From Tranquillimonas alkanivorans (GTDB taxonomy: Bacteria; Pseudomonadota; Alphaproteobacteria; Rhodobacterales; Rhodobacteraceae): a stretch of 38,910 nucleotides of DNA. Both the position numbers and the translations under genes were made by a program. The notes below the pieces were generated by a model that saw only the letters and a list, made by a program, of their open reading frames with translations, searched no databases and had not been told where the DNA came from. This document shows, in pieces, positions 4,329 to 30,971 of the stretch; within the stretch, counting starts at the first letter, position 1, and each line of letters opens with the position of its first letter. The stretch is from positions 1-38,910 of the forward strand of contig NZ_FOXA01000023.1 in NCBI RefSeq assembly GCF_900115595.1. Reading direction: 5' to 3'.

Positions 4329-4430
4329 CACCCGTCTTCGACGGACCCTCCGGGTTGCGTCCACTCGCCGGGGAGGGCGTCCCCGACGGCGCCTGCAGCG
4401 AGCTGGGCCTGCGGCCCCCATCTCCGACCA

Positions 4431-10981: not shown

Positions 10982-11190
10982 AGCGGCAGGAGTGGGCCGT
11001 TCACCACCGGGCGTGCTGTGCCGCACACACGAACGGCAATGCGGCATGAAACGGGGTAGAGCCGGCGTGTGGTCGGCGATGAGGTGGCGTGCGGCGGACC
11101 ATGGGCCGAAGCCGCTCGGGGCCTTCGTCGCCTGCCAGGCATTGCGGGCCATCCAATCCGAGGCACGGGCGATGGCGATCGACCTCGGAG

Positions 11191-11480: not shown

Positions 11481-11498
11481 AGGCGAGCCTCTGACGGT

Positions 11499-12425
11499 TC
11501 AGGCCCTCGGCCAGCCCGCGAGGCGGGGCAGGGTGAGCGGCGTCAGGTACATCGGGATCTGGTAGCAGCCCACGAAGAGCAGAAGGTCGCCGGTCGCGGC
11601 GGCGGGCAGGCTCGCGAGGAAGAGGGCGAGATTGCGGTTCGAGGCCGCCACTGCGAGGCCCGCGGCCTCGGACGGCTCGGCCCGCCGCGCGGCCCTCCAA
11701 GTGGCCAGCGCCAGCGCCCGGTGCAGGCCGAACGAGAGGGCCAGCGCGGCGGGCAGGGCCGGGTCGAGGCGCTGCAGCGCCGGTCCCACTGCCGACATCA
11801 ACCCGATCACGACGAGCCCCATGGTCAACGCGACGAGCCCGTCCACCGCCACGGACGCGTCGGGCCGGGTCACGGCCGGGGCGAGCTTGCGCAGCAGGGC
11901 GGCCGCGCCGATGGCCAGGGCGATCACCAGCAGCAGCCGCGCCGCGCCCGCGAGCACCGTCGCCACCTCTCCGAAGACCGGCAGGACGAGGAATACCGGC
12001 AGCGCCGTCAGCGGCAGAAGCGCGGTTCCGAGGGCGAGCTGCCGCATCGCCGCGCCCGCGTCGGCCCGGCACATCAGCGCGAGCCCCGGCGCGCCCGTGA
12101 TGGGCGCCGCGGCAAGGACAAGCACCGCTCCGGTCGCGAGCGGGCCGTCGAGCCAGCCGAGTGCCTCCAGCACTCCGGCAGCGACGAGAGGCAGCACCGT
12201 CTGCCCGAGGACCACGAGAAGCACCGTCCGGGGCCAGTGCCGGCGCGGCGGCAGGGCGCGCCGCGGCCCGACGCGCAGCGCGGCGAGAAAGAGCGACAGC
12301 GCGATCAGCGGGACGAGTGCCCCGGCCATCCACCGTGCCAGTCCGGGGAAGACGATCCCCGCGGCCAGCCCCGCCACCAGCACCCATCGGCCGTGCCGGG
12401 CCAGCCAGCCGAGGCCGCCCCTCAC
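11499..12425 (-). CDS. BASS-type (bile acid:sodium symporter-like) carrier
   Basis: 308 residues with about nine or ten hydrophobic helices and the BASS-type pattern of small residues (APITGAPGLALMCRADAGAA, and AAGLAVAASNRNLALFLA near the second crossover). BASS carriers move organic anions with sodium. The start is GTG 12425, which overlaps the stop of the MarR gene (GTGA), so translation is coupled; the frame upstream of it is just the MarR shadow. It is the last gene of the TRAP-MarR operon and may import or export a related organic acid. The substrate is unknown. Confidence 0.7.
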   Translation of the reverse strand: MRGGLGWLARHGRWVLVAGLAAGIVFPGLARWMAGALVPLIALSLFLAALRVGPRRALPPRRHWPRTVLLVVLGQTVLPLVAAGVLEALGWLDGPLATGAVLVLAAAPITGAPGLALMCRADAGAAMRQLALGTALLPLTALPVFLVLPVFGEVATVLAGAARLLLVIALAIGAAALLRKLAPAVTRPDASVAVDGLVALTMGLVVIGLMSAVGPALQRLDPALPAALALSFGLHRALALATWRAARRAEPSEAAGLAVAASNRNLALFLASLPAAATGDLLLFVGCYQIPMYLTPLTLPRLAGWPRA

Positions 12426-12946
12426 AGCGAGGCCGCCGCCCGCGCCGCTTGGTCGTAGCTGCCCGAAAGCGCCCGCATCAGCGCGGCCAGCCGGCTCATG
12501 TCCGCCCGATCGAAGCCTGCGGCGGCTGCGGTTTCGACGAGCAGAGCCTCGCGGATCTCGGCGTAGCGGCGGCACAGCGCGGCGCCGGCCTCGGTCACGG
12601 CGACGGTCTTTTCCTTGCCCTTGCGACCGGTCTCGGTGAGGCCGCGCTCCTGCAGCTTACGCACTGCGTAGTTGACGATATGCGTGTCCTCGACGTTCAG
12701 CACGAGGCAGAGGTCCGCCAGCGTCTTTGGTCGCTCCCGGTGATAGGCGAGGTGCAGGACGAGGACCTCCATTGGCGCCATGCCCGGTTGCCCCGCCGCG
12801 TCGGCGCAACGGGTGATCCAGCGCTGGAAGGCGTTGTTGGCCATCGTGACAGCGAACTCGACCTCGGACAGCTCGGGCAGGTCGGACTTCGCGAGGTGCG
12901 CCGAACTGACCACGTGGCCGACGGGGCTTTTCGTCTCGCGGCTCAT
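12422..12946 (-). CDS. MarR-family transcriptional regulator
   Basis: 174 residues with a winged-helix domain: MAPMEVLVLHLAYHRERPKT, then LADLCLVLNVEDTHIVNYAV as the recognition region, and RKLQERGLTETGRKGKEKTV as the wing, followed by a dimer helix. Such dimers bind short palindromes and answer to small carboxylic ligands. ATG 12946 overlaps the dctM stop (ATGA). The only strong palindrome near this operon is 16048-16063, in the gap between dctP and the oxoprolinase gene, and it is the likely target. The ligand may be the transported acid. Confidence 0.85.
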   Translation of the reverse strand: MSRETKSPVGHVVSSAHLAKSDLPELSEVEFAVTMANNAFQRWITRCADAAGQPGMAPMEVLVLHLAYHRERPKTLADLCLVLNVEDTHIVNYAVRKLQERGLTETGRKGKEKTVAVTEAGAALCRRYAEIREALLVETAAAAGFDRADMSRLAALMRALSGSYDQAARAAASL

Positions 12947-14247
12947 CTCGACAGCATCGTTCCGGGCAGCCACAGCGCGAGCTGCGGGAAGAGCGCCAGC
13001 AGCGCGACCGCCAGCACGAGCAGGCCGAAGAAGGGTGCGGCGTAACGGGCGATCGAGAAGATGTCGCGCCCGGTGATCGTCTGCAGCACGAAGAGGTTGA
13101 AGCCCACGGGCGGCGTGATCTGGCTCATCTCGACCACGAGGACGAGGAAGACGCCGAACCAGATCGGATCGATTCCCGCCTGCACGACCATCGGAAGGAT
13201 GATCGAGACCGTGAGCACGACGATCGAGATCCCGTCGAGGAACATCCCCATCACGATGAAGAAGACCGTCAGCGCGGCAAGCAGCGCGTAGGGCGAGAGC
13301 CCCATCTCCCCGATCCAGGCGGCGAGCTGGCGCGGGATGCCCGTGTAGCCCATCGCGACCGTCAGGAAGGCCGCGCCCGCGAGGATGAAGGTGATCATGC
13401 AGGTCGTGATCGTGGCTGCGCGCAGCGCGTCGGCGAAGCCCGCCCAGCTCATCGCTCCCGTCGCCCAGGCGAGGATGAGCGCGCCGGTCACGCCAATCAC
13501 CGCGGCCTCGGTCGGGCTGGCGATGCCCGCGTAGATCGAGCCGATCACGGCGAAGATGAGCCCAACCACCGGCAGCAGGCGCGCGGACCCACGGATGGCG
13601 GCGCGGCGGTCGACCGGCGGCTCGGCCTCGGGCATGCGGCTGCGGTTCACCGTCGACCAGAGCATGATGTATCCGGAGAACAGGGCCGCGAGCATCAGCC
13701 CCGGCACGACCCCCGCGAGGAAGAGGCGCGCGATCGATTGCTCCGTCGCTGCGCCGTAGACGATCAGGATGATCGAGGGCGGAATCAGGAAGCCGAAGGT
13801 CCCCGAGCCCGCAAGCGTCCCGATGATCATGCGCGGATCGTAGCCCCGGCTCGTCAGCTCCGGCACCGACATGCGGCCGATGGTGGCGGTGGTCGCCGCC
13901 GAGGAGCCGGAGACGGCGGCGAAGAGGGCGCAGCCGAAGACGTTCACGTGCAACAGCCGTCCGGGCAGGCGCCCGGTGAACGGGGCAAGGCCCGAGAACA
14001 TGTCCGAGGACAGGCGCGAGCGGACAAGGATTTCCCCCATCCAGATGAACATCGGCAGGGCGGTGAGGTCCCAGACGGTCAGCCCGCCCCAGACTTTTGT
14101 AGCGAAAACCAGCCCGGCGGGGGCGGGCGAAGCCAGCGCCATCGCCACGAGTCCCACGGCGATCAGCGAGAAGCCGACCCACAGGCCCGCCGCCAGCGCT
14201 CCGAAAAGCACCACGACGAGGATCGGCGCAAGCAGGGACAGCTCCAT
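12943..14247 (-). CDS. dctM: TRAP transporter large membrane subunit DctM
   Basis: 434 residues, about 12 membrane segments, the ion-coupled permease of a TRAP importer. Family marks: FIWMGEILVRSRLSSDMFSG, AAVSGSSAATTATIGRMSVP, GTFGFLIPPSIILIVYG, and near the end EMSQITPPVGFNLFVLQ. ATG 14247 shares one base with the dctQ stop (TGATG), which fixes the start; an upstream frame extension only shadows dctQ. It works with DctQ and DctP. Confidence 0.93.
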   Translation of the reverse strand: MELSLLAPILVVVLFGALAAGLWVGFSLIAVGLVAMALASPAPAGLVFATKVWGGLTVWDLTALPMFIWMGEILVRSRLSSDMFSGLAPFTGRLPGRLLHVNVFGCALFAAVSGSSAATTATIGRMSVPELTSRGYDPRMIIGTLAGSGTFGFLIPPSIILIVYGAATEQSIARLFLAGVVPGLMLAALFSGYIMLWSTVNRSRMPEAEPPVDRRAAIRGSARLLPVVGLIFAVIGSIYAGIASPTEAAVIGVTGALILAWATGAMSWAGFADALRAATITTCMITFILAGAAFLTVAMGYTGIPRQLAAWIGEMGLSPYALLAALTVFFIVMGMFLDGISIVVLTVSIILPMVVQAGIDPIWFGVFLVLVVEMSQITPPVGFNLFVLQTITGRDIFSIARYAAPFFGLLVLAVALLALFPQLALWLPGTMLSR

Positions 14248-14798
14248 CAGGCGTGTTCCCCGCGTGCGGCCTCGGCGGCCTGGAAATCGGGCACGCGCCC
14301 ACGGGCCAGCGCGACGGCCGCATCGATCAGCGCGATGCAGAAGAGGGCGAGCCCGAGGGTCATGACGCCCTGCGGCAGCCAGAGCGGCACCGGGATCATG
14401 CCGTAGCTCACGGAGTCGAAGCGCCAGCTGTCGAGGACCTGCACGGCGCTCGACCACGTGGCGAAGGCGGCCAGCCCGGCGGCGGCCAGCGTGACAGCGA
14501 AGCCGAGGACGCGCCCGGCGGCGGGCGGCAGAGCGCGGGTCAGCAGCGTCACGCGGACATGCCCGCCTGCCCGCAGGGTGCCTGCGAGGCCGAGGAAGAC
14601 GGCGCCGACGAAGAGAAAGGCGCCGATCTCGGCCAGCGAGGGCACGGTCAGTCCCGGCGGCGGAGCGCCGGTCGCGCGGGCGGCGCGGTCGATCAGGCGG
14701 CCCGTAATCTGGAACAGCACGAGCAGCGCGATTGCGGCGAAGGCCGCCGCGGCCAGCGCCAGCGCGCCCTGGTACAGACGGTCGAGGAAGGAGCGCAT
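14247..14798 (-). CDS. dctQ: TRAP transporter small membrane subunit DctQ
   Basis: 183 residues with four membrane segments, the size and layout of DctQ. Visible features are the first helix (LALAAAAFAAIALLVLFQIT), the middle (EIGAFLFVGAVFLGLAGTLR AGGHVRVTLL) and the last helix (GVMTLGLALFCIALIDAAV). It lies in front of dctM with a TGATG overlap and 166 bases after dctP. Confidence 0.9.
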   Translation of the reverse strand: MRSFLDRLYQGALALAAAAFAAIALLVLFQITGRLIDRAARATGAPPPGLTVPSLAEIGAFLFVGAVFLGLAGTLRAGGHVRVTLLTRALPPAAGRVLGFAVTLAAAGLAAFATWSSAVQVLDSWRFDSVSYGMIPVPLWLPQGVMTLGLALFCIALIDAAVALARGRVPDFQAAEAARGEHA

Positions 14799-14871
14799 GC
14801 GGTGTCTCCGGGATGGGCTGCGGATCGTGTCCGGACCAGGCGAAAGGAGCGCGGGAGGGCCTGCCTGCGGA

Positions 14872-14888
14872 CGGGCGGGCGTCGCCCG
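14872..14888. promoter_or_regulatory. hairpin between dctP and dctQ
   Basis: CGGGCG and CGCCCG pair around GGCGT in the 166-base gap. Such gaps often give more binding protein than permease. The stem is short, in very GC-rich DNA. Confidence 0.25.
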
Positions 14889-14964
14889 GGCCGCTGCGCG
14901 ACCCGGACGGAGCGAGCGGTGGCGCGCGTCGTCCGACGAAGGCTCACCGCTTACCCCCGAGCCC

Positions 14965-15951
14965 TCACTCCGTCGCGGCGCGATAGTCCTCGATCAGCGC
15001 GGCGCCTTCGTCGCCCGCTTCCTCGAGCCACTCCTGGGTCATCGTGTGCCCGATCTCCGACAGCTCGCCCGACAGGGTCTCGGACGGCTCGGCAACGGTC
15101 ATGCCGTTCTCCTTGAGCGTCGCGATCTTCTCAGCGGTCTCCGCCTCGCTCATCTCCCAGCCGCGGGTCTCGGCCTCGGCGGCGGCGTCGAGCACGGCCT
15201 GGCGCTGCTCCTCGGGCAGGCCATCGAACGCGGTGCTGTTCACGATCACCATGTTTTTCGGCAGCCATGCCTGCGTGTCGGTGTAGTAGTCGGTGAAGTC
15301 CCAGGCCTGGCTGGAGACGCCGGTTGAGGGCGAGGTGATCATCGCATCGACGCGGCCGGTGGCGAAGGCCGTGGGAATGTCGCCGGTCTCGATCTGCGTG
15401 GGCACCGCACCCATGAGCTGCGCCAGCCGCTCGGTCGCCGTGTTGTAGGCGCGGAAGGCGGCGCCCTCAAGGTCGGCGGTGCTTTCGACCGGCTCCTGCG
15501 TGTAGAGACTCTGGCCCGGCCACGGCACGGCGTAGAGCAGCGTCAGGCCCTGCTCGGCCAGCTTCTCCTCGACGAGCGGACGCGAGGCCTCCCACAGGGC
15601 GCGGGCTTCGTCGTAGTTGTCGGCCAGGAAGGGAATGGAATCGACCGAAAAGACCGCGTCCTCGTTCGCGAGCCGCGACATCAGCACCTCGCCGACCGGC
15701 GCGAGACCGCGGCGGACCGAGTCCTTAATCTCTGGATGGGCGAAGAGCGAGCCCGCGGAATGCACCGTGATCGTCAGGTCGCCGCCGGTGGCCTCACCGA
15801 CATCCTCGGCGAACTGCTGGATGTTCTGGGTGTGAAACACGCTGTCGCCGTAGGGCGTGGGCATGTCCCATGCGGTCTGCGCCAGCGCGGGCAGCGCGGT
15901 GGTGGCAAGGAGTGCGGCGCCGGCGAGCGCCGTGCTGAAATGCTTGGTCAT
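14965..15951 (-). CDS. dctP: TRAP transporter substrate-binding protein DctP
   Basis: 328 residues with a signal peptide cut after about residue 25 (ALPALAQ). The body is a DctP-type binding protein: DMPTPYGDSVFHTQNIQQFA, then LTITVHSAGSLFAHPEIKDS. FRAYNTATERL carries the family's conserved Arg that holds the ligand carboxylate. ATG 15951 is chosen because the signal peptide starts there. The gene diverges from the 5-oxoprolinase gene with a palindrome between them. In Bordetella, two DctP-type proteins (DctP6 and DctP7) bind pyroglutamate, so 5-oxoproline is a good guess for the ligand. Confidence 0.92.
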   Translation of the reverse strand: MTKHFSTALAGAALLATTALPALAQTAWDMPTPYGDSVFHTQNIQQFAEDVGEATGGDLTITVHSAGSLFAHPEIKDSVRRGLAPVGEVLMSRLANEDAVFSVDSIPFLADNYDEARALWEASRPLVEEKLAEQGLTLLYAVPWPGQSLYTQEPVESTADLEGAAFRAYNTATERLAQLMGAVPTQIETGDIPTAFATGRVDAMITSPSTGVSSQAWDFTDYYTDTQAWLPKNMVIVNSTAFDGLPEEQRQAVLDAAAEAETRGWEMSEAETAEKIATLKENGMTVAEPSETLSGELSEIGHTMTQEWLEEAGDEGAALIEDYRAATE

Positions 15952-16047
15952 CGGTATCGCCCTGTTGTTGTCCGGACGGCCGTTCTTGCTACGGCGCCGG
16001 GCCGGCCGCCCTTGACCCGACGAGAGCAAGCTTGACCTTACGTTAGT

Positions 16048-16063
16048 AATTTGTCAACAAATT
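16048..16063. promoter_or_regulatory. 7-2-7 palindrome, probable MarR operator
   Basis: AATTTGTCAACAAATT is a perfect inverted repeat (AATTTGT-CA-ACAAATT) in an AT-rich island inside GC-rich DNA. It lies 34 bases before the oxoprolinase ATG and 97 bases before dctP. On the minus strand its centre contains TTGACA. The size and TTG/CAA arms fit MarR-type sites. Confidence 0.65.
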
Positions 16064-16097
16064 GTCATCGTATCACGCGGCGGACCGGGAGGACGGC

Positions 16098-19739
<3,642 letters not shown>

Positions 19740-20949: not shown

Positions 20950-20972
20950 ATGAACACTGAATCATATTTCAC
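20950..20972. promoter_or_regulatory. TetR operator, site 1 (livK promoter)
   Basis: ATGAACACTGAATC then ATATTTCAC. It matches the site in front of tetR (30357-30379) at 19 of 23 positions, and 25 of 31 with flanks. The centre TGA-A-TCA and outer arms ATGAA/TTTCA are kept. It lies 30 bases before the livK ATG. Confidence 0.7.
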
Positions 20973-21002
20973 AAAACAGCATAAGATTCGGGAGGAGTTC
21001 TC

Positions 21003-22175
21003 ATGCATCGTCTGTCCACCGCCGCCGCGGCGCTCATGGCGTTCGCCGCGCCCGCGGCCGCCGACATCACCATCGCCCATGTCTATGGCAAAACCGGCGC
21101 GCTCGAGGCCTATGCCGAGCAGTCGCACAACGGTTTGATGATGGGCCTGGAATACGCGACCGACGGCACGATGGAAGTCAACGGCGAGAAGATCGTCGTG
21201 ATCGAGAAGGACACCCAGGCCGACCCGGCGCTCGGCAAGGCGCTCCTGGCCGAGGCCTACGGCGACGACGACGCCGCGTTGGCCGTGGGCCCCGTGAGTT
21301 CGGGCGTGGCGCTGGCAATGCTGCCGGTGGCCGAGGAATACGAGCGCATCCTGATCGTCGAGCCGGCGGTCGCGGACTCGATCACCGGCGAGAACTGGAA
21401 CCGCTATGTCTTCCGCACGGGCCGGAATTCCAGCCAGGACGCCATCGCCAATGCCGTGGCGCTGGGGGGCGAGGACGTGAAGGTCGCGACGTTGGCGCAG
21501 GATTACGCCTTCGGCCGCGACGGCGTGTCCGCGTTCAAGGAGGCGCTCGAGGAAACCGGCGCCGAGGTCGTGCACGAGGAATACGTGCCCACCGACACCA
21601 CCGACTTCACCGCGGCGGCCGAGCGCATCTTCAACGCGATGGACGGCGTCGAGGGCGAGAAGAAGCTCTTCATCATCTGGGCCGGCGGCGGCAACCCGAT
21701 GGGCAAGATCAACGCGATGGACCCCTCGCGCCACGACGTCGAGATCGCCACGGGCGGCAACATCCTGGCGGCGCTGACCGCCTACAAGGAACTGCCGGGC
21801 ATGGAGGGCGCGACCTATTACTACTACGAGATCCCGGACAACGAGGTGAACGACTGGCTGGTCGAGCAGCACTTCGAGCGCTACGACAGCCCGCCGGACT
21901 TCTTCACCGCGGGCGGCATGGCCGCGGGAATCGCCGTGGTTGAGGCGCTGGAAAAGGCCGGGTCCACCGATACCGAGGACCTGATCACCGCGATGGAAGG
22001 GATGGAGTGGATGACGCCCAAGGGCACCATGCGCTTCCGCCCGGAGGACCACCAGGCGCTGCAATCGATGTACCACTTCCGCACCGAGGTGCAGGACGAC
22101 AAGGACTATGGTGTGCCGGTGCTGGTCCGCGAACTGGGCATCGACGACATGGACATCCCCGTCCGCAACCAGTGA
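21003..22175 (+). CDS. livK: HAAT/Liv-type ABC transporter substrate-binding protein
   Basis: 390 residues, a periplasmic type I binding protein (peripla_BP_6 type). The signal peptide ends near residue 20 (AAPAAA). ITIAHVYGKTGALEAYAEQS begins the mature protein, and VGPVSSGVALAMLPVAEEY and AQDYAFGRDGVSAFKEAL are typical of the fold. It starts after GGGAGGAG and is the first gene of a five-part transporter operon ending with a hydrolase. The ligand cannot be read from the sequence. The regulon with an acyl-CoA ligase argues for an aromatic, cyclic or branched carboxylic acid rather than an amino acid. Confidence 0.9.
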   Translation: MHRLSTAAAALMAFAAPAAADITIAHVYGKTGALEAYAEQSHNGLMMGLEYATDGTMEVNGEKIVVIEKDTQADPALGKALLAEAYGDDDAALAVGPVSSGVALAMLPVAEEYERILIVEPAVADSITGENWNRYVFRTGRNSSQDAIANAVALGGEDVKVATLAQDYAFGRDGVSAFKEALEETGAEVVHEEYVPTDTTDFTAAAERIFNAMDGVEGEKKLFIIWAGGGNPMGKINAMDPSRHDVEIATGGNILAALTAYKELPGMEGATYYYYEIPDNEVNDWLVEQHFERYDSPPDFFTAGGMAAGIAVVEALEKAGSTDTEDLITAMEGMEWMTPKGTMRFRPEDHQALQSMYHFRTEVQDDKDYGVPVLVRELGIDDMDIPVRNQ

Positions 22176-22186
22176 TCCACCGGACC

Positions 22187-22210
22187 CCCGGGGCCGCCGT
22201 CGGCCCCGGG
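22187..22210 (+). promoter_or_regulatory. 10-bp stem hairpin between livK and livG
   Basis: CCCGGGGCCG and CGGCCCCGGG pair perfectly around CCGT, 11 bases after the livK stop. Such a stem can protect the livK part of the message and reduce read-through, giving more binding protein than ATPase. Confidence 0.5.
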
Positions 22211-22262
22211 CGCGGCCCGGGCGTGCGATGAGCCCCGGCGCATTTCTTCGAAGGACCCCGCG

Positions 22263-23027
22263 ATGACCGTCCCGCTTCTGGAGACGCAGGACCTTTCCGT
22301 GCGCTTCGGCGGCCACGTCGCCGTCGACGCCGTCACCTGCGCCTTCCGCGCCGGAGAGCTGACCGCCATCGTCGGCCCGAACGGCGCCGGCAAGACCACG
22401 TATTTCAACCTGATCTCGGGCCAGATCCCGGCGAGCGCGGGCCGCGTGCTGCTGGACGGCCGCGACATCACCCGCACACCCGTGGCCGCGCGCTGCCGGC
22501 TGGGCCTTGGCCGGGCGTTCCAGCTGACCAACCTGTTCCCCGACCTCACCGTGCTCGAGAACGTGCGTCTCGTGATCCAGGCGCATCGGGGGCGCGGCTT
22601 CTCGATCTTCTCGCTCGCCGACGCGCAGCGCGAGGTGACCGAGGCCGCCGAGGCGGTGATCGACCGGGTGCGCCTCACGCCGCTGATCTCGCAGAAGGTC
22701 TCGGAGCTCAGCCACGGCAACCAGCGCAAGCTCGAGGTGGCGCTGCTGATCGCGCTCGATCCGCGCGTCTACATGTTCGACGAGCCGACGGCGGGCATGT
22801 CGGTGGACGAGGCGCCGGTGGTGCTGGACCTGATCGCCGAGCTGAAGGCCGAGTCCGACCGCACGATCCTTCTGGTCGAGCACAAGATGGACGTGATCCG
22901 CACGCTCGCCGACCGCATCATCGTGCTGCACAACGGCAAACTCGCCGCCGACGGCAAACCGGCCGAGGTCATGGCCTCGGACGTGGTGCAGGAGGCCTAC
23001 ATGGGCAAGGAGCTGGAAGATGTCTGA
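22263..23027 (+). CDS. livG: ABC transporter ATP-binding protein LivG
   Basis: 254 residues. Walker A is GPNGAGKTT, the signature region is ELSHGNQRKLEVALLIA, Walker B is VYMFDEPTAGMS, and the switch His lies in LLVEHKMDVI. The long insert between Walker A and signature, with GLGRAFQLTNLFPDLTV, is typical of LivG. GAAGGA precedes the ATG. It overlaps livF by 8 bases. Confidence 0.93.
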   Translation: MTVPLLETQDLSVRFGGHVAVDAVTCAFRAGELTAIVGPNGAGKTTYFNLISGQIPASAGRVLLDGRDITRTPVAARCRLGLGRAFQLTNLFPDLTVLENVRLVIQAHRGRGFSIFSLADAQREVTEAAEAVIDRVRLTPLISQKVSELSHGNQRKLEVALLIALDPRVYMFDEPTAGMSVDEAPVVLDLIAELKAESDRTILLVEHKMDVIRTLADRIIVLHNGKLAADGKPAEVMASDVVQEAYMGKELEDV

Positions 23028-23742
23028 CGCGATCCTGTCGCTCAGAGGCGTGAAGACGGACATCGCGCAGTATCACATCCTGCAGGGCGTCGACCTCGAC
23101 GTGCCGCGGGGGCAGGTGACGATGCTGCTGGGCCGCAATGGCGTGGGCAAGACCACGACCCTGCGCACGATCATGGGCCACTGGCGCGCGCGCGCGGGGA
23201 CGATCCGGCTTGACGGCGACGATATCGCGCAGGCCCCAACGCCGGCAATCGCGCGGCGGGGCGTAGGCTATGTGCCCGAGAACATGGGCATCTTTTCGGA
23301 CCTGACGGTGGAAGAGAACATGACGCTCGCCGCCGCCTCCGGCCCGCTCGAGCGTGAGCGGCTTGAGTGGATCTTCGGCGCCTTCCCGGCGCTGCGCACC
23401 TTCTGGCGTTCCGAGGCGGGGAACCTCTCGGGCGGGCAGAAGCAGATGCTGTCGATCGCCCGCGCCATGGCCGAGGAGCGCAAGCTCTACCTGATCGACG
23501 AGCCGACGAAGGGTCTGGCGCCGGCGATCGTCTCGACCATGGCCGGTGCGCTGCGCGACCTGAAGCGGCGCGGCGCCTCGATCCTTCTGGTCGAGCAGAA
23601 CTTCTCGGTCGCGCGCGCGCTCGGGGACCGGGCGGCGGTGATGGACGACGGGCGGATCGTCTGGACCGGGGAGATGGCCGAGCTCGCGGGCGACGCGGCC
23701 CTGCAGGAGCGGCTGATGGGCCTCAGCATGGAGACGGCGTGA
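23020..23742 (+). CDS. livF: ABC transporter ATP-binding protein LivF
   Basis: 240 residues, the second ATPase of the Liv-type importer. Walker A GRNGVGKTT, signature NLSGGQKQMLSIARA, Walker B LYLIDEPTKGLAP, then LLVEQNFSVARAL. GVGYVPENMGIFSDLTVEEN is the usual LivF loop. It starts inside the end of livG. Confidence 0.93.
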   Translation: MSDAILSLRGVKTDIAQYHILQGVDLDVPRGQVTMLLGRNGVGKTTTLRTIMGHWRARAGTIRLDGDDIAQAPTPAIARRGVGYVPENMGIFSDLTVEENMTLAAASGPLERERLEWIFGAFPALRTFWRSEAGNLSGGQKQMLSIARAMAEERKLYLIDEPTKGLAPAIVSTMAGALRDLKRRGASILLVEQNFSVARALGDRAAVMDDGRIVWTGEMAELAGDAALQERLMGLSMETA

Positions 23743-23830
23743 TGCGTGGCGGCTGGCAGGACACGCCTTCGGCGAGAGTATTTTCGGCAAGAGGAAGCAA
23801 CGGAACGCCAACATGCGAGGGAGGGGCGCG
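23743..23830 (+). other. short livF-livH spacer with an extragenic motif
   Basis: 88 bases. The part around 23770-23800 (GGCGAGAGTATTTTCGGC then AAGAGGAAG) looks like an extragenic sequence that I recall from many Rhodobacterales genomes. The ribosome site GAGGGAGGGG precedes livH. No second copy was noticed in this window. Confidence 0.3.
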
Positions 23831-24862
23831 ATGACGGCTGCGCCGGATCATGCGCCGACGCTGTCGGGGCCGGGGCTGAAGGACCGACTGGGGCAGGCGG
23901 CGCCGCTGCTGCTCGTCCCTGTGCTGGTGGTGCTGGGGTATCTCTCCATCGGCTCGACGAGCTCGTGGCTGACGCTGACGGTGTCGGGGCTGGCGATGGG
24001 TATGATGATCTTCATCATGGCCTCGGGCCTCACGCTCGTCTTCGGGTTGATGGACGTGATCAACTTCGGGCACGGCGCGTTCATCTCGGTCGGGGCCTTC
24101 GTCGGCATCTCGGTCGTCCTGGCGCTGTCGGGCTGGGCCGGCGCGCCGTCGCTGGCGCTGAACCTGGGCGCCATCGCGCTGGCCGTGATCGCCGCGATGG
24201 CGGTGACGGCCGTTCTGGGCTGGGCCTTTGAGCGGGTGATCGTGCGACCGGTCTATGGCGCGCATCTCAAGCAGATCCTCGTCACCGTCGGCGGGCTGAT
24301 CGTGATCGAGCAGCTGATCCACGTGATCTGGGGGCCGGACGAGATCTTCCTGACGCGCCCTGAAAGCCTGAAGGGCGCGATCACCTTCGCGGGCGCGGCG
24401 CTCGAGCGGTATCGCATCCTCGCCGTCGTCTTCGGGCTGGCGCTGTTCCTGGCGATGCGGCTGGTGCTGCGGCGCACGAAGATCGGCCTGATCGTGCGCG
24501 CGGGCGTGCAGAACGGCGAGATGGTCGAGGCTCTCGGCTACCGCCTGCGTCTGGTGTTCGTCGGCGTCTTCGTGGCCGGCTCCGCTCTCGCGGGTCTGGG
24601 CGGCGTGATGTGGGGCCTCTATCAGGAGGTCGTGACGGCGGGGATGGGCGAGGAGATGATGATCCTCGTCTTCATCGTCGTCATCATCGGCGGGCTCGGT
24701 TCGGTCGAGGGGGCGTTCATCGGCGCGCTGCTGGTGGGGCTGTTGCAGAACTACGTGGCCTTCCTGGCCCCCAAGCTGGCGCTCGTGTCCAACATCGGGC
24801 TTCTGACGCTGATCCTGCTGTGGCGGCCTCAGGGGATGATGCCCGTGGTGAAGGCGAAATAG
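23831..24862 (+). CDS. livH: ABC transporter permease LivH
   Basis: 343 residues with about eight membrane helices. Family marks are FGLMDVINFGHGAFISVGAF and, near the end, VVIIGGLGSVEGAFIGALLV. It has a longer N-terminus than E. coli LivH. The ATG at 23831 has GAGGGAGGGG just upstream; the ATG at 23813 would overlap that site. Confidence 0.9.
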   Translation: MTAAPDHAPTLSGPGLKDRLGQAAPLLLVPVLVVLGYLSIGSTSSWLTLTVSGLAMGMMIFIMASGLTLVFGLMDVINFGHGAFISVGAFVGISVVLALSGWAGAPSLALNLGAIALAVIAAMAVTAVLGWAFERVIVRPVYGAHLKQILVTVGGLIVIEQLIHVIWGPDEIFLTRPESLKGAITFAGAALERYRILAVVFGLALFLAMRLVLRRTKIGLIVRAGVQNGEMVEALGYRLRLVFVGVFVAGSALAGLGGVMWGLYQEVVTAGMGEEMMILVFIVVIIGGLGSVEGAFIGALLVGLLQNYVAFLAPKLALVSNIGLLTLILLWRPQGMMPVVKAK

Positions 24863-24863
24863 G

Positions 24864-25919
24864 ATGATCGTGACCCTGCTTTCCGGCGACCGGCCGCGCA
24901 GCCCGCTGCTGACCCTGATCCTTCTGGCGATCCTCGCGGGCCTCGCGCTCGCGCCGTTCCTGTTCCCCGGCGTGCGCTCGCTCGAGACGGCGGCGCGGAT
25001 CTGCATCTTTATCGTGCTGGTGGCGAGCTATGATCTGCTCTTGGGCTACACCGGGATCGTCAGCTTCGCGCACACCATGTTCTTCGGCCTGGGCGCCTAT
25101 GGCGTGGCGTTGGCGTCCGAGCACATCGGGCGCGGCTTCGGCGCGCTCGCGGTGGGCACCGTCGCGGGGGCGGTCGCGGCGGCGCTGCTGGCGATGGTGA
25201 TCGGGCTGTTCTCGCTGCGGGTGCGGGCGATCTTCTTCGCAATGATCACGCTCGCCGTCGCCTCGGCCGTGGCGGTGCTGGTCAGCCAGCTGTCGCAGAT
25301 CACCGGGGGCGAGGACGGGCTGAACTATCGCATCCCGCGCGAACTGACGCCGGCGTTCCGGTGGGGCGGGAAGCTGTTCGACGTGAACCTGAACGGTAAG
25401 CTGCTGAACTACTACCTCGTCTTCTTCTGTTCGCTGGGCTTGTTCCTTCTGATGCTGCGCATCGTGAACTCGCCCTTCGGCCGGGTGCTCCAGGCGATCC
25501 GCGAAAACGACTTCCGGGCCGAGGCGATCGGCTATCGCGTCGTGCGCTACCGCGTCGCCGCGACCTGCATCTCGGCCGCCGTGGCGGCGCTGGCGGGAAG
25601 CCTCTTCGCCGTCTGGCTGCGCTATGTCGGGCCGGACACGACGCTGAGCTTCGAGATCATGCTCGACATCCTGCTGATGGTGGTGATCGGAGGAATGGGC
25701 ACGATGTACGGCGCGGTCGTGGGCGCGACGCTGTTCGTGCTGGCGCAGAACTATCTGCAGAACCTGATGGGGCTGGCCTCGGGCGCGACCGAGGGGGTGC
25801 CGGTCGTCTCGGACCTTCTGGACCCCGACCGATGGCTGTTGTGGCTGGGCGTGCTGTTCATCCTCAGCGTCTACTTCTTTCCCACCGGCATCGTCGGACG
25901 TCTTCGGGCGGGGCGCTGA
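24864..25919 (+). CDS. livM: ABC transporter permease LivM
   Basis: 351 residues with about ten membrane helices. Family marks are YDLLLGYTGIVSFAHTMFFG, then FFAMITLAVASAVAVLVSQL with ITGGEDGLNYRIP, and LLMVVIGGMGTMYGAVVGAT. It starts one base after the livH stop, so the two permeases are translated together. Confidence 0.92.
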   Translation: MIVTLLSGDRPRSPLLTLILLAILAGLALAPFLFPGVRSLETAARICIFIVLVASYDLLLGYTGIVSFAHTMFFGLGAYGVALASEHIGRGFGALAVGTVAGAVAAALLAMVIGLFSLRVRAIFFAMITLAVASAVAVLVSQLSQITGGEDGLNYRIPRELTPAFRWGGKLFDVNLNGKLLNYYLVFFCSLGLFLLMLRIVNSPFGRVLQAIRENDFRAEAIGYRVVRYRVAATCISAAVAALAGSLFAVWLRYVGPDTTLSFEIMLDILLMVVIGGMGTMYGAVVGATLFVLAQNYLQNLMGLASGATEGVPVVSDLLDPDRWLLWLGVLFILSVYFFPTGIVGRLRAGR

Positions 25920-26708
25920 GTGGCGGTGCGCGAGGCAGGCTCGGGGCGACCGCTCGTCTTCCTGCACGGCTGGACGATGGACGCCAGCATCTTCGAGGGC
26001 CAGTTCGGCCGTCTGTCGGACCGGTTTCACTGCCTCGCGCCCGATCTGCCGGGGCACGGCACGGCCCGCGACGGCGCGCCGACGCTGGAGGCCGCGGCGG
26101 ACGCGGTGGACGCGCTGCTGCGCGAGTTGTCGGAGGTCGTGCTGATCGGCTGGTCGATGGGAGCGTCGGTGGCTTGGAGCTACGTGCGGCGGCACGGAGC
26201 GGAGGCGCTCGCCGGGCTCGTGACGGTGGACATGAGCCCGCGGCTGCTCAATGGGCCGGGCTGGCCGCACGGGCTGCTCGGGCAGGAAAGGGCCGGGGCG
26301 CGCGCAATGGCCGCGAGGTTCGACGCGGACTGGGAGGGCGGGGCGCAGGCTATCGCCTCGACGATGTTCGCCACGCGGGACGGGGTTCCGGGCTATGGGC
26401 GCGACCGGGCGATGCGGCAGGTTACGTCGAACGAGCCCGAGACAATGCGGCGGATCTGGCGCGCGCTGGTGGCGGCGGACCTGCGTGACGTGGTTCCCCG
26501 GGTCCCGGTCCCGGTGCTTGCCTGCCACGGGGCGCGGAGCCGGGTCTATCCGGCCTCGGCCGCGGAATGGATCGCGGGAGCCTCCCCGCAGGGGCGGCGC
26601 CTAGCGTTCGAGATGTCGGGACATTCCCCGCACCTGGAGGAGCCTGACGCCTTCGCCGAAGCGATCGCGAAGTTCGCCGGTCAGGGTGCGTGCGAGCACG
26701 CACCCTGA
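25920..26708 (+). CDS. alpha/beta hydrolase ending the Liv operon
   Basis: 262 residues. The nucleophile elbow is GWSMG (Ser), the oxyanion region is VFLHGWTMD, and the catalytic His is in GHSPHLEEPDAF. The fold covers esterases, C-C hydrolases and lactonases. The start is a GTG placed directly after the livM stop (TGAGTG), so coupling is likely. In this operon it may release the acid from an ester or lactone, or cleave a ring-opened product. The reaction is not known. The stop codon lies inside the strong terminator hairpin. Confidence 0.8.
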   Translation: MAVREAGSGRPLVFLHGWTMDASIFEGQFGRLSDRFHCLAPDLPGHGTARDGAPTLEAAADAVDALLRELSEVVLIGWSMGASVAWSYVRRHGAEALAGLVTVDMSPRLLNGPGWPHGLLGQERAGARAMAARFDADWEGGAQAIASTMFATRDGVPGYGRDRAMRQVTSNEPETMRRIWRALVAADLRDVVPRVPVPVLACHGARSRVYPASAAEWIAGASPQGRRLAFEMSGHSPHLEEPDAFAEAIAKFAGQGACEHAP

Positions 26709-26712
26709 CCGG
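26677..26712. terminator. perfect 17-bp stem terminator at the operon junction
   Basis: CCGGTCAGGGTGCGTGC and its exact complement pair around a GA loop, 26677-26712. The hairpin covers the hydrolase stop codon (26706-26708). It can act on both convergent transcripts. No U-tract is seen on either side. Confidence 0.65.
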
Positions 26713-26783
26713 TGCGTCCTCCACGTCGGACGGTGCGGGCTCTGCGACCTTGCCTGAGGCTGACGCTAGAGCCGGCTCCGGGC

Positions 26784-26803
26784 GGTGCGTACGAACACGC
26801 ACC
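26784..26803. terminator. second, related hairpin at the end of the minus-strand operon
   Basis: GGTGCGT and ACGCACC pair around ACGAAC and touch the stop codon of the last hotdog gene. The GGTGCGT...ACGCACC arms repeat those of the 26677 hairpin, so the two look like copies of one sequence. Confidence 0.5.
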
Positions 26804-27159
26804 TACGCGCCGACGTCCTTGACCAGCACCAGGGACCTGCCTTCGCACACCACTGTGCCGTCCTCGGTCGCGCAGGAGGCCCAGAGATCCACCAGGTGCT
26901 TCTCGGGGCGCACGCGCGTCACCTCGACGCTCGCCATCAGCGGCTGACCGACCGGGGCAGGGGCGAGGAACCGCATCTCCTGCTTCAGGTAGTTCGTCCC
27001 CGGCCCCGGGAGCTTCACACCCAGAAGATAGGAGAACATGGCGGCCACCAGCGGCTCGGGCACCGCGCCGTCTACCGGCGAGCCGGTGAGGCGGGCGAAA
27101 TCCTCGACCTCCGCCGCGCCGAAGGTGCGCGAGACGTGGCGCTTGTCGCCGAGTTCCAT
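26803..27159 (-). CDS. MaoC-like hotdog protein without the hydratase motif
   Basis: 118 residues with a single hotdog fold: FGAAEVEDFARLTGS, then VPEPLVAAMFSYLLGVKLPG and YLKQEMRFLAPAPVGQPLMA. The region where MaoC/PhaJ enzymes carry the Asp and His of the hydratase motif (GDxNPxH) reads GSPVDGAVPEP, so both catalytic residues are missing. The start is ATG 27159, which overlaps the stop of the preceding MaoC gene (TGATG). The pair resembles heterodimeric dehydratases such as mycobacterial HadAB/HadBC, in which one subunit is catalytic and the other supports substrate binding. That is an inference. Confidence 0.7.
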   Translation of the reverse strand: MELGDKRHVSRTFGAAEVEDFARLTGSPVDGAVPEPLVAAMFSYLLGVKLPGPGTNYLKQEMRFLAPAPVGQPLMASVEVTRVRPEKHLVDLWASCATEDGTVVCEGRSLVLVKDVGA

Positions 27160-27512
27160 CACGCGACCTCAGTCTCGCCGATCAGCAATTCGGCCTCGTC
27201 GGCCCGGCGCACGGCGCGTAGGTAGAACCGGTTCTCGGCGTGAAGCTCGACCTCGAGCATCACGGACTCCCCGGCGAAGCACGGATTGGGGAACATCAGG
27301 GATTGAGAGACGTGCCGGGCGTGGGGCCGCGCGTCGCGCAACAGCGTCCAGAGCTTGGAGTAGATCAGCATGCCGTGCGCCACCGTTCGGCCGAAGCGCG
27401 TGCGGGAGGAGAACCCGAAGTCCACATGGATCGGGTTGTCGTCGCCCGAAATGCGCGCGAAGGCGTCGAACTCTTCTTGCGTCGGGGTCCATTCGGCGGT
27501 GATCTGGCTCAT
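27159..27512 (-). CDS. MaoC-like (R)-type enoyl-CoA hydratase, catalytic hotdog
   Basis: 117 residues. FARISGDDNPIHVDFGFSS is the complete hydratase-2 motif with the catalytic Asp and His, followed by GRTVAHGMLIYSKLWTLL. It hydrates an enoyl-CoA, or the reverse. ATG 27512 overlaps the CoA-ligase stop (ATGA) and the end overlaps the next hotdog gene, so the order ligase, MaoC, MaoC-like is tightly coupled. The protein is single-domain, and its partner lacks the motif. Confidence 0.82.
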   Translation of the reverse strand: MSQITAEWTPTQEEFDAFARISGDDNPIHVDFGFSSRTRFGRTVAHGMLIYSKLWTLLRDARPHARHVSQSLMFPNPCFAGESVMLEVELHAENRFYLRAVRRADEAELLIGETEVA

Positions 27513-28987
27513 CTCAGACGCTCCCTCAGATCGGGCTTGCGGATCTTGCCGGCGGCGGTGCGGGGGAAATCCTCGACGATTTCGAACCGCGCCGGGATCT
27601 TGTATTTGGCCAGCCGCTCGCGACACCAGCCCTGCAGCGTGCCGGTGTCGAGCGCCTGCCGGGGTCGGGGCAACAGGAAGGCCGCGCCGACCTCGCCCCA
27701 GCGGGAGTCTGGAATGCCGACCACGGCCGCTTCGAGCACGGCGGGATGCGTGCACAGCACGCGCTCGACCTCGGCCGGATAGACGTTCTCTCCGCCCGAA
27801 ATGAACATATCCTTGATCCGATCGACGATGAAGTAGTACCCGTCCGCGTCCCGGCGGCCCACGTCGCCGGATTTCAGCCAGTCGTCGTGGGTGAACGTCT
27901 CCCGCGTCGCCGCCTCGTTTCCGAAATAACCCGGCGTGATGTTGGGGCCGCGGAACTGCAGTTCTCCCTCACCGGGCTCGCCCTGCGGCACGCCGTCCAG
28001 CCGCACCTCGGTCAGCACTTGTGCACGGCCGACCGAGCCGATCTTGTCGGCCGCCCGGGCGCGGTCCATCAGAAAGACGGTTGGGCCCGTCTCGGTCATG
28101 CCCATGCCGTTGAGCACTTGCGCGCCGCGCTCGGCGAAGAAGCGGATCAGAGGCTCGGGCAACGGCGCGCCGCCGCAGCCGCAGCGCAGGGTGCTCCAGT
28201 CCACCCGGTCCACGTCGTCGTGCAGGCTGAACGCCTGATAGATCGCGGGGACGCCGAAGAACTGCGTCACGCCGCCGCCGCGGATCAGCGACAACAGCGT
28301 GTCGGCGTCGAACTTGGGCAGGATGGTGGAGCAACCGCCGGCCAGGAAGACGGGCAGGGTGTAAAGGTTGATTCCCGCTGTGTGGAACAGCGGCAGGAAG
28401 TTCACGCTGCGGTCGGTCGAGACGAGATCGATCGCCTGTCCGATGTTGACCGCATTGGCCCACGCCATCCGCGCTGTCTGGATCACGGCCTTCGGCCGTC
28501 CGGTCGTGCCCGAGGTGAAGAGCAGGTACCAAGGCCGGGTCGCCGAGACGGGATCAGCGCGGTCCGGGGCGGGGGTGCTTGCCCACTCTGTCACCGGGCC
28601 GTCCATCGAAAGAAGCGTCAGGTCCAGCGCCTTGGCCACCGCTCGGCCCGCTTCGGTGTGCGCCTCATCGTGGATCAGGGCGCGCGCGCCGACGGTCGAG
28701 AGGGTCTCGATCAGCTCCGCCGCGGGGTGGCGCCAGTTCAGCGGCGCAAGAATGATGCCGGTCTTCTGACAGGCGAAGAGCGTCAGGAAGAACTCGACTC
28801 GATTGAGCGAAAGGACGGCGAGGCGGTCGCCCTCCCCCAGCCCGCTGTCGGTCAGGCCCCCTGCGATCCTGTTGGCGGCGGCGTTGACCTCGGCGAAGCT
28901 CCAGCGTTTTCCACCCTCGATGAACGCCGCGGCGTCGGGCGAGATTTCGGCGCGCTTCATTGCCATGTCGGGGATCAAGTCAAGCAT
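27509..28987 (-). CDS. AMP-forming acyl-CoA ligase
   Basis: 492 residues of the ANL superfamily, making an acyl-CoA from a carboxylic acid, ATP and CoA. Core motifs: LLFTSGTTGRPKAVIQTARM (P-loop), NGMGMTETGPTVF, SGDVGRRDADGYYFIVDR, IKDMFISGGENVYPAEVERV, and the C-terminal RTAAGKIRKPDL with the catalytic Lys. It is a general FadD-like ligase, and the acid cannot be read from sequence. ATG 28987 overlaps the crotonase gene by 8 bases. It probably activates the acid imported by the Liv-type transporter of the convergent operon. Confidence 0.9.
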   Translation of the reverse strand: MLDLIPDMAMKRAEISPDAAAFIEGGKRWSFAEVNAAANRIAGGLTDSGLGEGDRLAVLSLNRVEFFLTLFACQKTGIILAPLNWRHPAAELIETLSTVGARALIHDEAHTEAGRAVAKALDLTLLSMDGPVTEWASTPAPDRADPVSATRPWYLLFTSGTTGRPKAVIQTARMAWANAVNIGQAIDLVSTDRSVNFLPLFHTAGINLYTLPVFLAGGCSTILPKFDADTLLSLIRGGGVTQFFGVPAIYQAFSLHDDVDRVDWSTLRCGCGGAPLPEPLIRFFAERGAQVLNGMGMTETGPTVFLMDRARAADKIGSVGRAQVLTEVRLDGVPQGEPGEGELQFRGPNITPGYFGNEAATRETFTHDDWLKSGDVGRRDADGYYFIVDRIKDMFISGGENVYPAEVERVLCTHPAVLEAAVVGIPDSRWGEVGAAFLLPRPRQALDTGTLQGWCRERLAKYKIPARFEIVEDFPRTAAGKIRKPDLRERLR

Positions 28988-29762
28988 GGGCGCCTCCCTT
29001 CGCCAATCCGCCAAGAAACCGCTCCATGCCCGCCAGCGTCTCTGGCCGCGCAATCCGCTCGCGAAACGCCCGGGCCTCGGCGTCGAGCCTTGCCTTCAGT
29101 GCCGCCCGCCGCGCCGCGTCCCAGATCAGCTGCTTGGCGGCAATCATGGCAGCGGCGTCGTGCGCCGCCAAGCGGGCGCAGAGGGCGAGGGCATGGTTCT
29201 CCGGTTCTTCCGCGATCTCGTGCGCCAGCCCGTGCGCGTGCAGGTCCTGCGCCGTCAGCCGCGAATTGGCGACCTGCCACGCCAGTGCGCGCGCCGCGCC
29301 CACGCGATCGGGCAGCAGCGCTGTCCAACCGCCGTCGGGGGCGAAGCCGACGCGGGCATAATACGGCTGCATGAAGCAATCCGGCGCCACCACGGCGAGG
29401 TCCGAGGCGAAGAGCAGACCGGCCGATCCGCCCGTGATGGCTCCTCGGGAGGCGGTCACCACGAGCGAGGGCAGCGAGACGAGGCGAAGCACGATGTCCT
29501 GCAGCACCGGCACCACCGCGTCGGCGTGCTCCGTCGCACGCCCCGCGTGGGCGGCGTCCCGGAAAGCAGCTACATCGCCGCCGGTCGAGAAGTTGCGGCC
29601 TTGGGCGGTGAGCAGCAGGATCGTCGGTGCAACGACCTCGGCATCGCGCACGGCCGCGCGCAGGTCGGACAGCAGGCCGGGCTCAAGGGCGTTCGACCGC
29701 GGTGCGCGCAGTTCGAGACGCAGGATCGCCTCCGACGGCCGCTCCAGCGCGACGAGGCTCAT
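28980..29762 (-). CDS. crotonase-family enoyl-CoA isomerase/hydratase
   Basis: 260 residues. The oxyanion-hole strand is GRNFSTGGDVAAF, and the second part SRGAITGGSAGLLFASDLAV leads to MQPYYARVGFAPDGGWTALL. The first catalytic Glu of classic hydratases is replaced (QPYYARVG), while an Asp is present in APDGG. This is the layout of PaaG-type isomerases rather than of hydratases with two Glu. ATG 29762 overlaps the tetR stop (ATGA). It lies just after tetR and before the CoA ligase in one coupled operon. Confidence 0.82.
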   Translation of the reverse strand: MSLVALERPSEAILRLELRAPRSNALEPGLLSDLRAAVRDAEVVAPTILLLTAQGRNFSTGGDVAAFRDAAHAGRATEHADAVVPVLQDIVLRLVSLPSLVVTASRGAITGGSAGLLFASDLAVVAPDCFMQPYYARVGFAPDGGWTALLPDRVGAARALAWQVANSRLTAQDLHAHGLAHEIAEEPENHALALCARLAAHDAAAMIAAKQLIWDAARRAALKARLDAEARAFRERIARPETLAGMERFLGGLAKGGAHA

Positions 29763-30349
29763 GGCGCGAGCCCCTCGCGGACCAGCGCGAAGGCCTCGTC
29801 TACCACGCCATCGATCTCGGCGGGATCGCCCCAGAGCGCATAGCGTTCCCCCAGCGCTTTCGCCATGCCCATCAGCGCCCAAGCCCGCACTTCGGCATCG
29901 CCCGGGCGCACCTCGCCATCCGCCTGGGCCTTCTTCAGTCGCGCCTCGTAGGCCTTGGCGAAGGTCGTGAAATAGTCGCGGTAGGCGGCGGGGTCGACGA
30001 AGCGGGCCTCTTCCACGATGCGATAGAGGGCGGGGCGTTCGGCGACGAAGTGCAGGAAGGCGGCGAGGCCGGCGCGTTCGGCTTCAAGCCGTGTGGCCCC
30101 GGGGTCAAGCGCGCGGGTGACGACCGTGCGGGTCAGGTGGCCCATCTCGACCACCAGCTCGCGGAAGATTTCTTCCTTCGATTTGAAGTAGATATAGAGC
30201 GTGCCCTGCGCGGTCTCGGCGCGCCGCGTGATCTCGGAAATTGACGCCGCGGCGAACCCGGCCTCGCCGAAAACCTCCTCGGCCGCACGCAGGATCTGCT
30301 CGCGCCGGGCACGTCCGCGTCTGGTTTTTGGAAGGTCTCCCTTGGGCAT
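29759..30349 (-). CDS. TetR-family repressor of the uptake and CoA-activation regulon
   Basis: 196 residues. The DNA-binding domain is clear: RREQILRAAEEVFGEAGFAA, ASISEITRRAETAQGTLYIY and FKSKEEIFREL. The C-terminal ligand domain follows. ATG 30349 fits the usual TetR N-terminus (MPKGDLPKTRRGRARREQIL). No good ribosome site precedes it, so the message may be leaderless or start very close. Its own palindrome (30357-30379) lies directly before the start and is repeated at livK. The ligand is probably an acyl-CoA or the free acid of the pathway. Confidence 0.88.
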   Translation of the reverse strand: MPKGDLPKTRRGRARREQILRAAEEVFGEAGFAAASISEITRRAETAQGTLYIYFKSKEEIFRELVVEMGHLTRTVVTRALDPGATRLEAERAGLAAFLHFVAERPALYRIVEEARFVDPAAYRDYFTTFAKAYEARLKKAQADGEVRPGDAEVRAWALMGMAKALGERYALWGDPAEIDGVVDEAFALVREGLAP

Positions 30350-30356
30350 GCAAAAC

Positions 30357-30379
30357 ATGAACCATGAATCATGTTTCAT
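30357..30379. promoter_or_regulatory. TetR operator, site 2 (tetR promoter)
   Basis: ATGAACCATGAATC then ATGTTTCAT. It is a 23-bp palindrome centred at 30368 with one mismatched pair, seven bases before the tetR ATG. See site 1 at 20950-20972. Confidence 0.75.
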
Positions 30380-30971
30380 AGTCAAGTGTGACGCCGACCG
30401 CCAACCACGTGGTGGCCGTCCTAAATCCGCACACCATGCTTCCCGACAACTCCCCCGACCGATGACGCCGCAGGAGGTGCACGGCAACTGGCTTAGGCCA
30501 CTCGGCGTCCGAGTTTCTGCACGAACCGTCATTCCGACCGAAGTCCATGAGCTGGAGCGTTGCGCCACCTGTGGCGCGTCGGAAGGCAACTAAGAAACAT
30601 GGTATGTGTGCTCTTCTACGGGCAGAGGGCACGGGCAAGAGTTCGTCTGCACAGCACCTCGCGCACGGCGGGATCGGTCGCGTCACTCCCGTTAACCGCG
30701 CACGATTATGTGGCTTAGTCGGTGGAGGCGCTCCCGCCGGACGGGAAGGAGTTCAGAGCCCTCGTTTTGGCGGCCTCCGGGAGCCTGGCTTGGACGTCCG
30801 GACTGCGGGCCTTTATTCGCGCGTGCTCAATATTCGCCGCGCCCGCTACGGCCGACCGACCGAAGGTTGGACAGCGGAGATTCGTTGCGGGCGCGGGCTG
30901 AACAGGCAGCGTGTTTGCAAGCCGCCTTCGGGCTGGAGCATCGACCATCGTTGGTGTTGAGTTCCGCTCAA
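30380..30971. other. gene-free stretch between tetR and the TPP-enzyme gene
   Basis: About 590 bases with no gene I can support. Several frames stay open only because of the GC content. Around 30780-30900 the minus strand shows CTCCGCTGTCCAACCTTCGG, loosely like the degenerate intergenic repeats elsewhere in the window. Confidence 0.4.

Follow-up and report, generated by a model that had tools for sequence, protein, structure and literature searches.

Does a single TetR-family protein govern both arms of a locus in which the operon of a Liv-type ABC importer converges on an operon of acyl-coenzyme A (CoA) enzymes? The locus lies in a 38,910-nucleotide stretch of Tranquillimonas alkanivorans DNA (contig NZ_FOXA01000023.1), here called the window, and each of its arms begins behind a similar 23-bp site, one before livK and one before tetR. 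The original prediction, made from the letters of the window, had taken the two sites for one palindrome and the two arms for one TetR regulon. This idea was supported by orthologous loci, by genome co-occurrence and by livK loci free of TetR; judged from such sequence comparisons, one TetR, one operator type and two transcription units very probably form a regulon with both sites. The proposal as a whole, an autoregulated TetR-family regulon that is released by an acyl-CoA and joins uptake to CoA activation, is likely. The sites are the following.

20950..20972, forward strand: predicted operator upstream of livK, 30 bases 5′ of the livK start codon.
30357..30379, reverse strand: predicted operator upstream of tetR, 8 to 30 bases 5′ of the tetR start (30349).
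30380..30385, reverse strand: possible −35 box (TTGACT) directly next to the tetR operator, seen by eye; a consensus promoter scan gave no promoter there.

The livK and tetR sites are identical at 19 of 23 positions, at the coordinates first proposed. With eight flanking bases the identity varies from 22 to 25 of 31 with the way the flanks are divided, and the claimed 25 of 31 was reached with the best splits (5+3, 6+2 or 7+1). The term palindrome suits the tetR site, which is self-complementary at 20 of 23 positions, but fits the livK site only loosely (14 of 23). When the window was searched with the pattern of the original prediction at up to three mismatches, these two sites only were found, each on both strands, with 0.00 expected from 100 shuffles. 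In the organism's own genome (4.54 Mb in 92 contigs, of which the window is C48) the same pattern gave one extra place, with three mismatches, and none with the reversed-pattern control; a looser palindromic pattern matched both sites without mismatch and two other places with two mismatches, and its control gave none. Because these searches, with patterns derived from the two window sites themselves, gave only three weaker places beyond the two strong sites, the site is not scattered in its own genome, and the wide scatter that had been named as speaking against the regulon was not seen.

Loci of relatives, mostly 20 kb and up to 25 kb long, were mapped with the window proteins, short loci first returned by the searches being replaced by longer stretches. 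Each livK or tetR start was scored by its best match within 200 bases to the operator consensus, ATGAAnCATGAnTCATGnTTCAT (20 informative positions; threshold 14). Scores of at least 14 were found in 4 of 1795 random 215-base stretches from the same loci. Excluded from the counts were L022 (a 35% TetR in another context), L142 (the same record as L097) and L223 (Mameliella, annotation only). Starts at the head of a transcription unit, a class that leaves other kinds of genes just upstream out of account, had the site in 70 of 79 cases (livK 35/39, tetR 35/40) when compared with none of 11 internal starts (ten tetR, one livK; Fisher p 4e-9); the consensus was built from the same loci, so that the head count is partly circular, and divergent loci count a shared site twice. 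Where tetR was absorbed into the liv operon, no site precedes tetR and the livK site is retained; a fused operon from livK to the second hotdog gene, with tetR internal, is found in L103, L105, L129, L130, L132, L134, L135, L136, L137 and L217. The two units diverge from a common promoter region in L159-L164, L166 and L167, and stand in tandem in L165. Through convergent, divergent and single-operon layouts, the site was kept wherever a transcription unit starts, with 9 exceptions among the 79. The comparison of sites before orthologous livK and tetR genes, proposed with the regulon, thus came out in its favor.

Genome co-occurrence and TetR-free livK loci are less exposed to that circularity. 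Among family genomes the consensus with at most two mismatches was present in 7 of 11 TetR-positive and 0 of 187 TetR-negative ones (p 1.6e-10), and the reversed-consensus control gave none among the matches listed; in one of the seven (G159) the site lies on another contig, before a livK orthologue (L173). In all 12 livK orthologue loci in which this TetR was not found the best score in the 300 bases upstream was 10 to 12 of 20, so that none had the site before livK; over the whole stretch the best score was 14, in two of them. These data bear on the possibility that a different regulator acts on both sites, or that the promoters are alike by common ancestry, TetR controlling neither or itself only. 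Both sites are promoter regions of a single locus, which is in keeping with it. However, the site tracks TetR in the genomes and before livK alike, and in the fused operons it is the tetR site that is lost and the livK site that is kept, so we consider this explanation very unlikely.

Sigma-54 activator homologues near livK in 5 of the 12 TetR-free loci raise the further possibility of two separate regulons, in which TetR would control the enzyme operon and the transporter would answer to some unrelated regulator, for instance a sigma-54 activator. An all-locus flank comparison, however, found such homologues in five loci in total, L217, the one TetR locus mapped alongside the twelve, is without one, and the operator stands at 35 of the 39 livK heads of TetR loci; two regulons are therefore extremely improbable. 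In 21 of 34 loci, though not in the window, a TTGAC-like box abuts the operator of livK; this position suggests that TetR represses by keeping the promoter blocked.

The TetR protein carries the TetR_N DNA-binding domain (PF00440, 59.3 bits; cut-off 24). Its best solved relative by sequence is FadRSa (6el2/6en8, E 2e-26), a TetR-family protein that represses a cluster of lipase and beta-oxidation genes in Sulfolobus acidocaldarius, and the first seven fold matches of its predicted model (mean pLDDT 93.5) are SaFadR chains, with a top TM of 0.85. Bacillus FadR, Mycobacterium FasR and Thermus FadR are TetR-fold acyl-CoA-binding regulators as well, but they are weaker fold matches than FadRSa, the FadR and FasR regulators standing lower, among other TetR proteins; the curated NCBIfam FadR and FasR models stayed far below cut-off (46.7 of 200 and 56.2 of 330 bits). 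According to the FadRSa report (PMC6449355), FadRSa-DNA complexes are strongly abrogated by acyl-CoA and not by acetyl-CoA, CoA or free fatty acids, Arg73 and Arg86 are important in the acyl-CoA response, mutation of Gly48, Tyr51 or Tyr53 harms DNA binding, and four genomic sites are described. Arg73 and Arg86 correspond to R74 (47/49 orthologues) and R87 (45/49) of the window protein, and Gly48, Tyr51 and Tyr53 to G49, Y52 and Y54 (49/49 each); some DNA-contact residues and two acyl-CoA arginines are thus retained. Like the predicted regulon of the window TetR, that of FadRSa includes hydrolases and CoA enzymes. The window TetR differs in being bacterial, in its ∼30% identity to FadRSa, in several changed DNA and ligand residues and in the Liv-type importer of its regulon.

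In the mechanism that we propose, a TetR dimer would bind each operator over or beside the promoter and repress transcription. The imported compound would be cleaved by the hydrolase, the ligase would couple the released acid to CoA, and the resulting acyl-CoA would bind TetR and free both operators. Because the regulon's own ligase makes acyl-CoA, induction by the ligase product is the simplest reading, and on balance we favor acyl-CoA as the inducer of TetR.

Several observations, besides the partial circularity of the head count, weigh against this picture. Of the nine unit heads that score below 14, six belong to three loci of a single genus, in which the shared site has diverged (L163, L164, L166); the others are L098 tetR, L101 livK and L124 tetR, the last of which has no recognisable site. 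Four of the 11 TetR-positive family genomes (G018, G062, G112, G154) are without the site at two mismatches or fewer, and the window's own livK site fails this stricter consensus pattern. In the window protein the FadRSa DNA-contact residues Tyr47, Leu49 and Phe52 are replaced by Q48, T50 and I53, and the ligand residues Lys77, Met101 and Arg132 by T78, V102 and A133. Finally, the crotonase was retrieved from 34 loci when compared with 43 for the ligase, and is for that reason dispensable.

The genes under the proposed control are arranged as follows.

21003..22175, forward strand: livK, periplasmic substrate-binding protein (Peripla_BP_6); closest solved relatives 3n0x and 3nnd.
22263..23027, forward strand: livG, ABC ATPase.
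23020..23742, forward strand: livF, ABC ATPase.
23813..24862, forward strand: livH, permease.
24864..25919, forward strand: livM, permease.
25920..26708, forward strand: alpha/beta hydrolase; Ser79 and His235 in orthologues.
26676..26713, no strand assigned: strong hairpin spanning the stop codon of the hydrolase gene; it has no U-tract and may be a terminator in both directions.
26803..27162, reverse strand: second hotdog protein; PhaJ-like predicted fold, no catalytic motif found.
27159..27512, reverse strand: MaoC-type (R)-specific enoyl-CoA hydratase; Asp24, His29.
27509..28987, reverse strand: acyl-CoA ligase (AMP-binding).
28980..29762, reverse strand: crotonase-family protein, probable enoyl-CoA isomerase and not hydratase.
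29759..30349, reverse strand: tetR, predicted FadRSa-like repressor.

Two units thus converge, livKGFHM-hydrolase on the forward strand and tetR-crotonase-ligase-maoC-hotdog2 on the reverse. Adjacent genes of the reverse unit overlap by 4 to 8 bases, which is consistent with one operon. The convergent coding ends are 94 bases apart, and the hairpin at 26676-26713 precedes and partly enters the gap, with 16 to 17 pairs, ∼−38 kcal/mol in a 55-base fold and z ∼−5 on each strand. A shared terminator, as claimed at the outset, is plausible from this strong hairpin at the operon junction, but no T-run follows it and a terminator scan reports none there. Elsewhere in the window, a 5-oxoprolinase/hydantoinase-like gene adjoining TRAP transporter-like genes (16062-19739 and 12943-16029) and a relaxase-like frame (4314-5474), in keeping with a plasmid or mobile element, were noticed by eye.

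The predicted gene set, a Liv importer with a hydrolase, ligase, crotonase and two hotdog proteins, is present, but catalytic residues that are usual in their families are missing from the crotonase and the second hotdog. In PhaJ-type hydratases an Asp and a His of the hydratase loop are catalytic, and HadAB and ChsH1-ChsH2 act as unequal pairs. Among solved structures, PhaJ and human HTD2 come closest to MaoC by sequence and to the second hotdog by fold. MaoC has Asp24 and His29 in 37/37 orthologues and a tighter motif, [SA]G[DE].NP.H, in 27/37. The second hotdog has a PhaJ-like predicted fold (mean pLDDT 94.9; TM 0.89 to 1iq6), the catalytic loop motif was found in 0/40 of its orthologues, and an LPG-G-T-Y-L segment marks 35/40 of these partners and 0/37 MaoC proteins. 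When compared with PhaJ (1iq6), MaoC keeps the catalytic pair and the partner shares the predicted fold without the motif, from which we infer that they may be two halves of one split PhaJ-type hydratase. Unlike PhaJ, HadAB or ChsH1-ChsH2, these are two short genes with complementary losses, which would together yield the single enzyme. The second hotdog is annotated as phosphate acetyltransferase in L141 (15200-15556), L143 (15184-15543) and L223 (16489-16863), perhaps via the fused model PRK08190.

The first glutamate of canonical enoyl-CoA hydratases lies in the pattern GG-x-x-E-[LI]. This pattern was found in 0/34 crotonase orthologues, and PDGGW stands in 34/34 instead; an isomerase is therefore likelier than a hydratase, and the protein is probably an enoyl-CoA isomerase by its sequence. 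The idea that the crotonase and the MaoC pair invert a 3-hydroxyacyl-CoA is weakened, since the crotonase is without that glutamate. After the ligase step, MaoC and its degenerate partner would together serve as a single (R)-specific enoyl-CoA hydratase, and a double bond would be shifted by the crotonase protein; this order (hydrolase, ligase, hydratase pair, crotonase) is offered tentatively.

What might the compound be? The hydrolase, with Ser79 and His235 in 37/37 aligned orthologues, weakly matches the intracellular polyhydroxyalkanoate (PHA) depolymerase model (45.8 of 300 bits). Together with the PhaJ and HTD2 relatives of the hotdog pair, this points weakly to a regulon for (R)-3-hydroxyacids, their esters or oligomers, for example PHA breakdown products, which the hydrolase would cut, the ligase activate and the PhaJ-like pair dehydrate to 2-enoyl-CoA. 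A Mariluticola locus (L215 9370-17699) points the same way: a sigma-54 regulator and a 3-hydroxybutyrate dehydrogenase (TIGR01963, above cut-off) stand beside the orthologous livKGFHM-hydrolase, and TetR was not found in the stretch. The dehydrogenase, however, adjoins livK in only 1 of 12 TetR-free loci, BioH outscores the depolymerase model for the hydrolase (also below cut-off), and among solved structures the ligase has its nearest relative in 8weu/8wev, which bears the name feruloyl-CoA synthetase / fatty-acyl-CoA synthase. We regard the 3-hydroxyacid assignment as rather unlikely.

The LivK relatives 3n0x and 3nnd match along most of the chain with E values of 1e-154 or better and are presumably R. 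palustris proteins; they belong to the same family as the window LivK, and no ligand was found for them in the literature by PDB code or by the locus tag RPA4397. Judged as a branched-chain amino acid (LivKHMGF) importer, the window proteins stayed below the cut-offs of the NCBIfam LivK, H, M, G and F models (best scores 60 of 477, 73.1 of 379, 90.5 of 366, 194.5 of 362 and 160.3 of 441 bits). Liv-class proteins of R. palustris are reported to have aromatic, fatty and dicarboxylic acids as ligands, but no branched-chain amino acids (PMC3223731). The binding of aromatic acids, the relatives of the ligase and, by name alone, an orthologue in Pseudomaricurvus alkylphenolicus would suit a regulon through which aromatic or hydroxycinnamic acids or their esters are taken up and their side chains used. 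Yet no ring-cleavage gene stands beside the block in the annotated lists, most loci being unannotated with only chosen neighbors identified, and the crotonase is without the hydratase glutamate; this assignment is doubtful.

In Haematobacter (L216 1-19950), another TetR-free locus, a livK 48% identical is surrounded by acyl-CoA dehydrogenases, an AMP-binding ligase, a thiolase and crotonases, neighbors that are consistent with use of an acid by way of CoA. Compared all against all in search of the substrate, the called flanking frames returned the known block and small clusters; the larger clusters were opposite-strand overlaps of known genes, or TonB receptor/MFS genes, and several others comprised 3 to 5 loci. 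Chosen neighbors in 8 of 10 TetR-free livK loci were pyridoxal phosphate (PLP) decarboxylases, GGDEF/EAL proteins, a thiamine pyrophosphate enzyme, a TauD protein, an isochorismatase, a PcaD-like hydrolase and a sigma-54 regulator. A PLP decarboxylase gene lies near the livK operon in two TetR-negative family genomes (L205 14326-15879, L206 14447-15859). The leads from LivK relatives, Mariluticola, Haematobacter and the ligase converge on no single compound.

How widely does the regulon occur? Orthologous TetR was found in 11/198 genomes of the family (E 1e-20), 20/390 of the order (1e-35) and 15/385 of the class (1e-25), samples that overlap and each include the own genome. In many Alphaproteobacteria it is accompanied by livKGFHM and by genes for an alpha/beta hydrolase, a CoA ligase and MaoC-type proteins; its holders include Anianabacter, Pseudovibrio, a Cohaesibacter metagenome-assembled genome and Pseudomaricurvus, which we take to be a gammaproteobacterium, and eight plasmid records, among them Hoeflea, Mameliella, Nitratireductor and Roseinatronobacter. 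Occurrence is patchy: the sole same-genus genome among the matches listed (G432) had no TetR match.

The company of tetR varies. No orthologous Liv genes were found within the stretch in L020, L131, L138 and L168, and tetR stands without the block in L097, L139, L140, L169 and L170 (L098 ends at a contig edge). It adjoins TonB receptor, hydrolase or MFS genes in L139, L140 and L169, and in L169 the operator lies between tetR and a TonB receptor-hydrolase-MFS run. Pseudomaricurvus has a second operator between a hydrolase and a TonB receptor gene, and Hoeflea has one (L141 21654-21676) before a second, different Liv-type ABC operon (L222 1981-6634). At the Qingshengfaniella locus (L097) no ligase, MaoC, hotdog or Liv genes were found; past the crotonase, a transposase-like frame seen by eye is followed by a left-over livK-type promoter, an operator and a ribosome-site-like GGGAGGAG (11090-12206), and the locus is probably a relic. 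In L124 (8213-10303, reverse strand) tetR and the acyl-CoA ligase form a single open reading frame, which speaks for the proposed regulon, and the crotonase and hydrolase genes were undetected in the mapped locus.

A bolder reading is that of a mobile, self-contained module that scavenges (R)-3-hydroxyacid esters or oligomers, compounds with no known import of this kind. In it a FadRSa-like acyl-CoA sensor (in Alphaproteobacteria, Pseudomaricurvus and several plasmids) would couple any importer at hand (a Liv-type ABC, a second Liv, a TonB receptor with MFS) to an ester hydrolase, to a CoA ligase and to a PhaJ hydratase split over two genes. We think this unlikely.

An acyl-CoA-responsive TetR that controls uptake and CoA chemistry is an already known kind of system. 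No description of this regulon with its operator was found in the openly licensed literature, among the matches listed of titles and abstract openings, with the operator strings searched too. Through the proposed regulon, (i) a 'branched-chain amino acid' importer would gain a regulator, an operator and partner enzymes; (ii) the TetR inducer, the LivK ligand and the ligase substrate should share one chemistry, which offers a route to the substrate; and (iii) the operator is conserved enough to suggest members elsewhere, and already indicates a second Liv importer or a TonB receptor.

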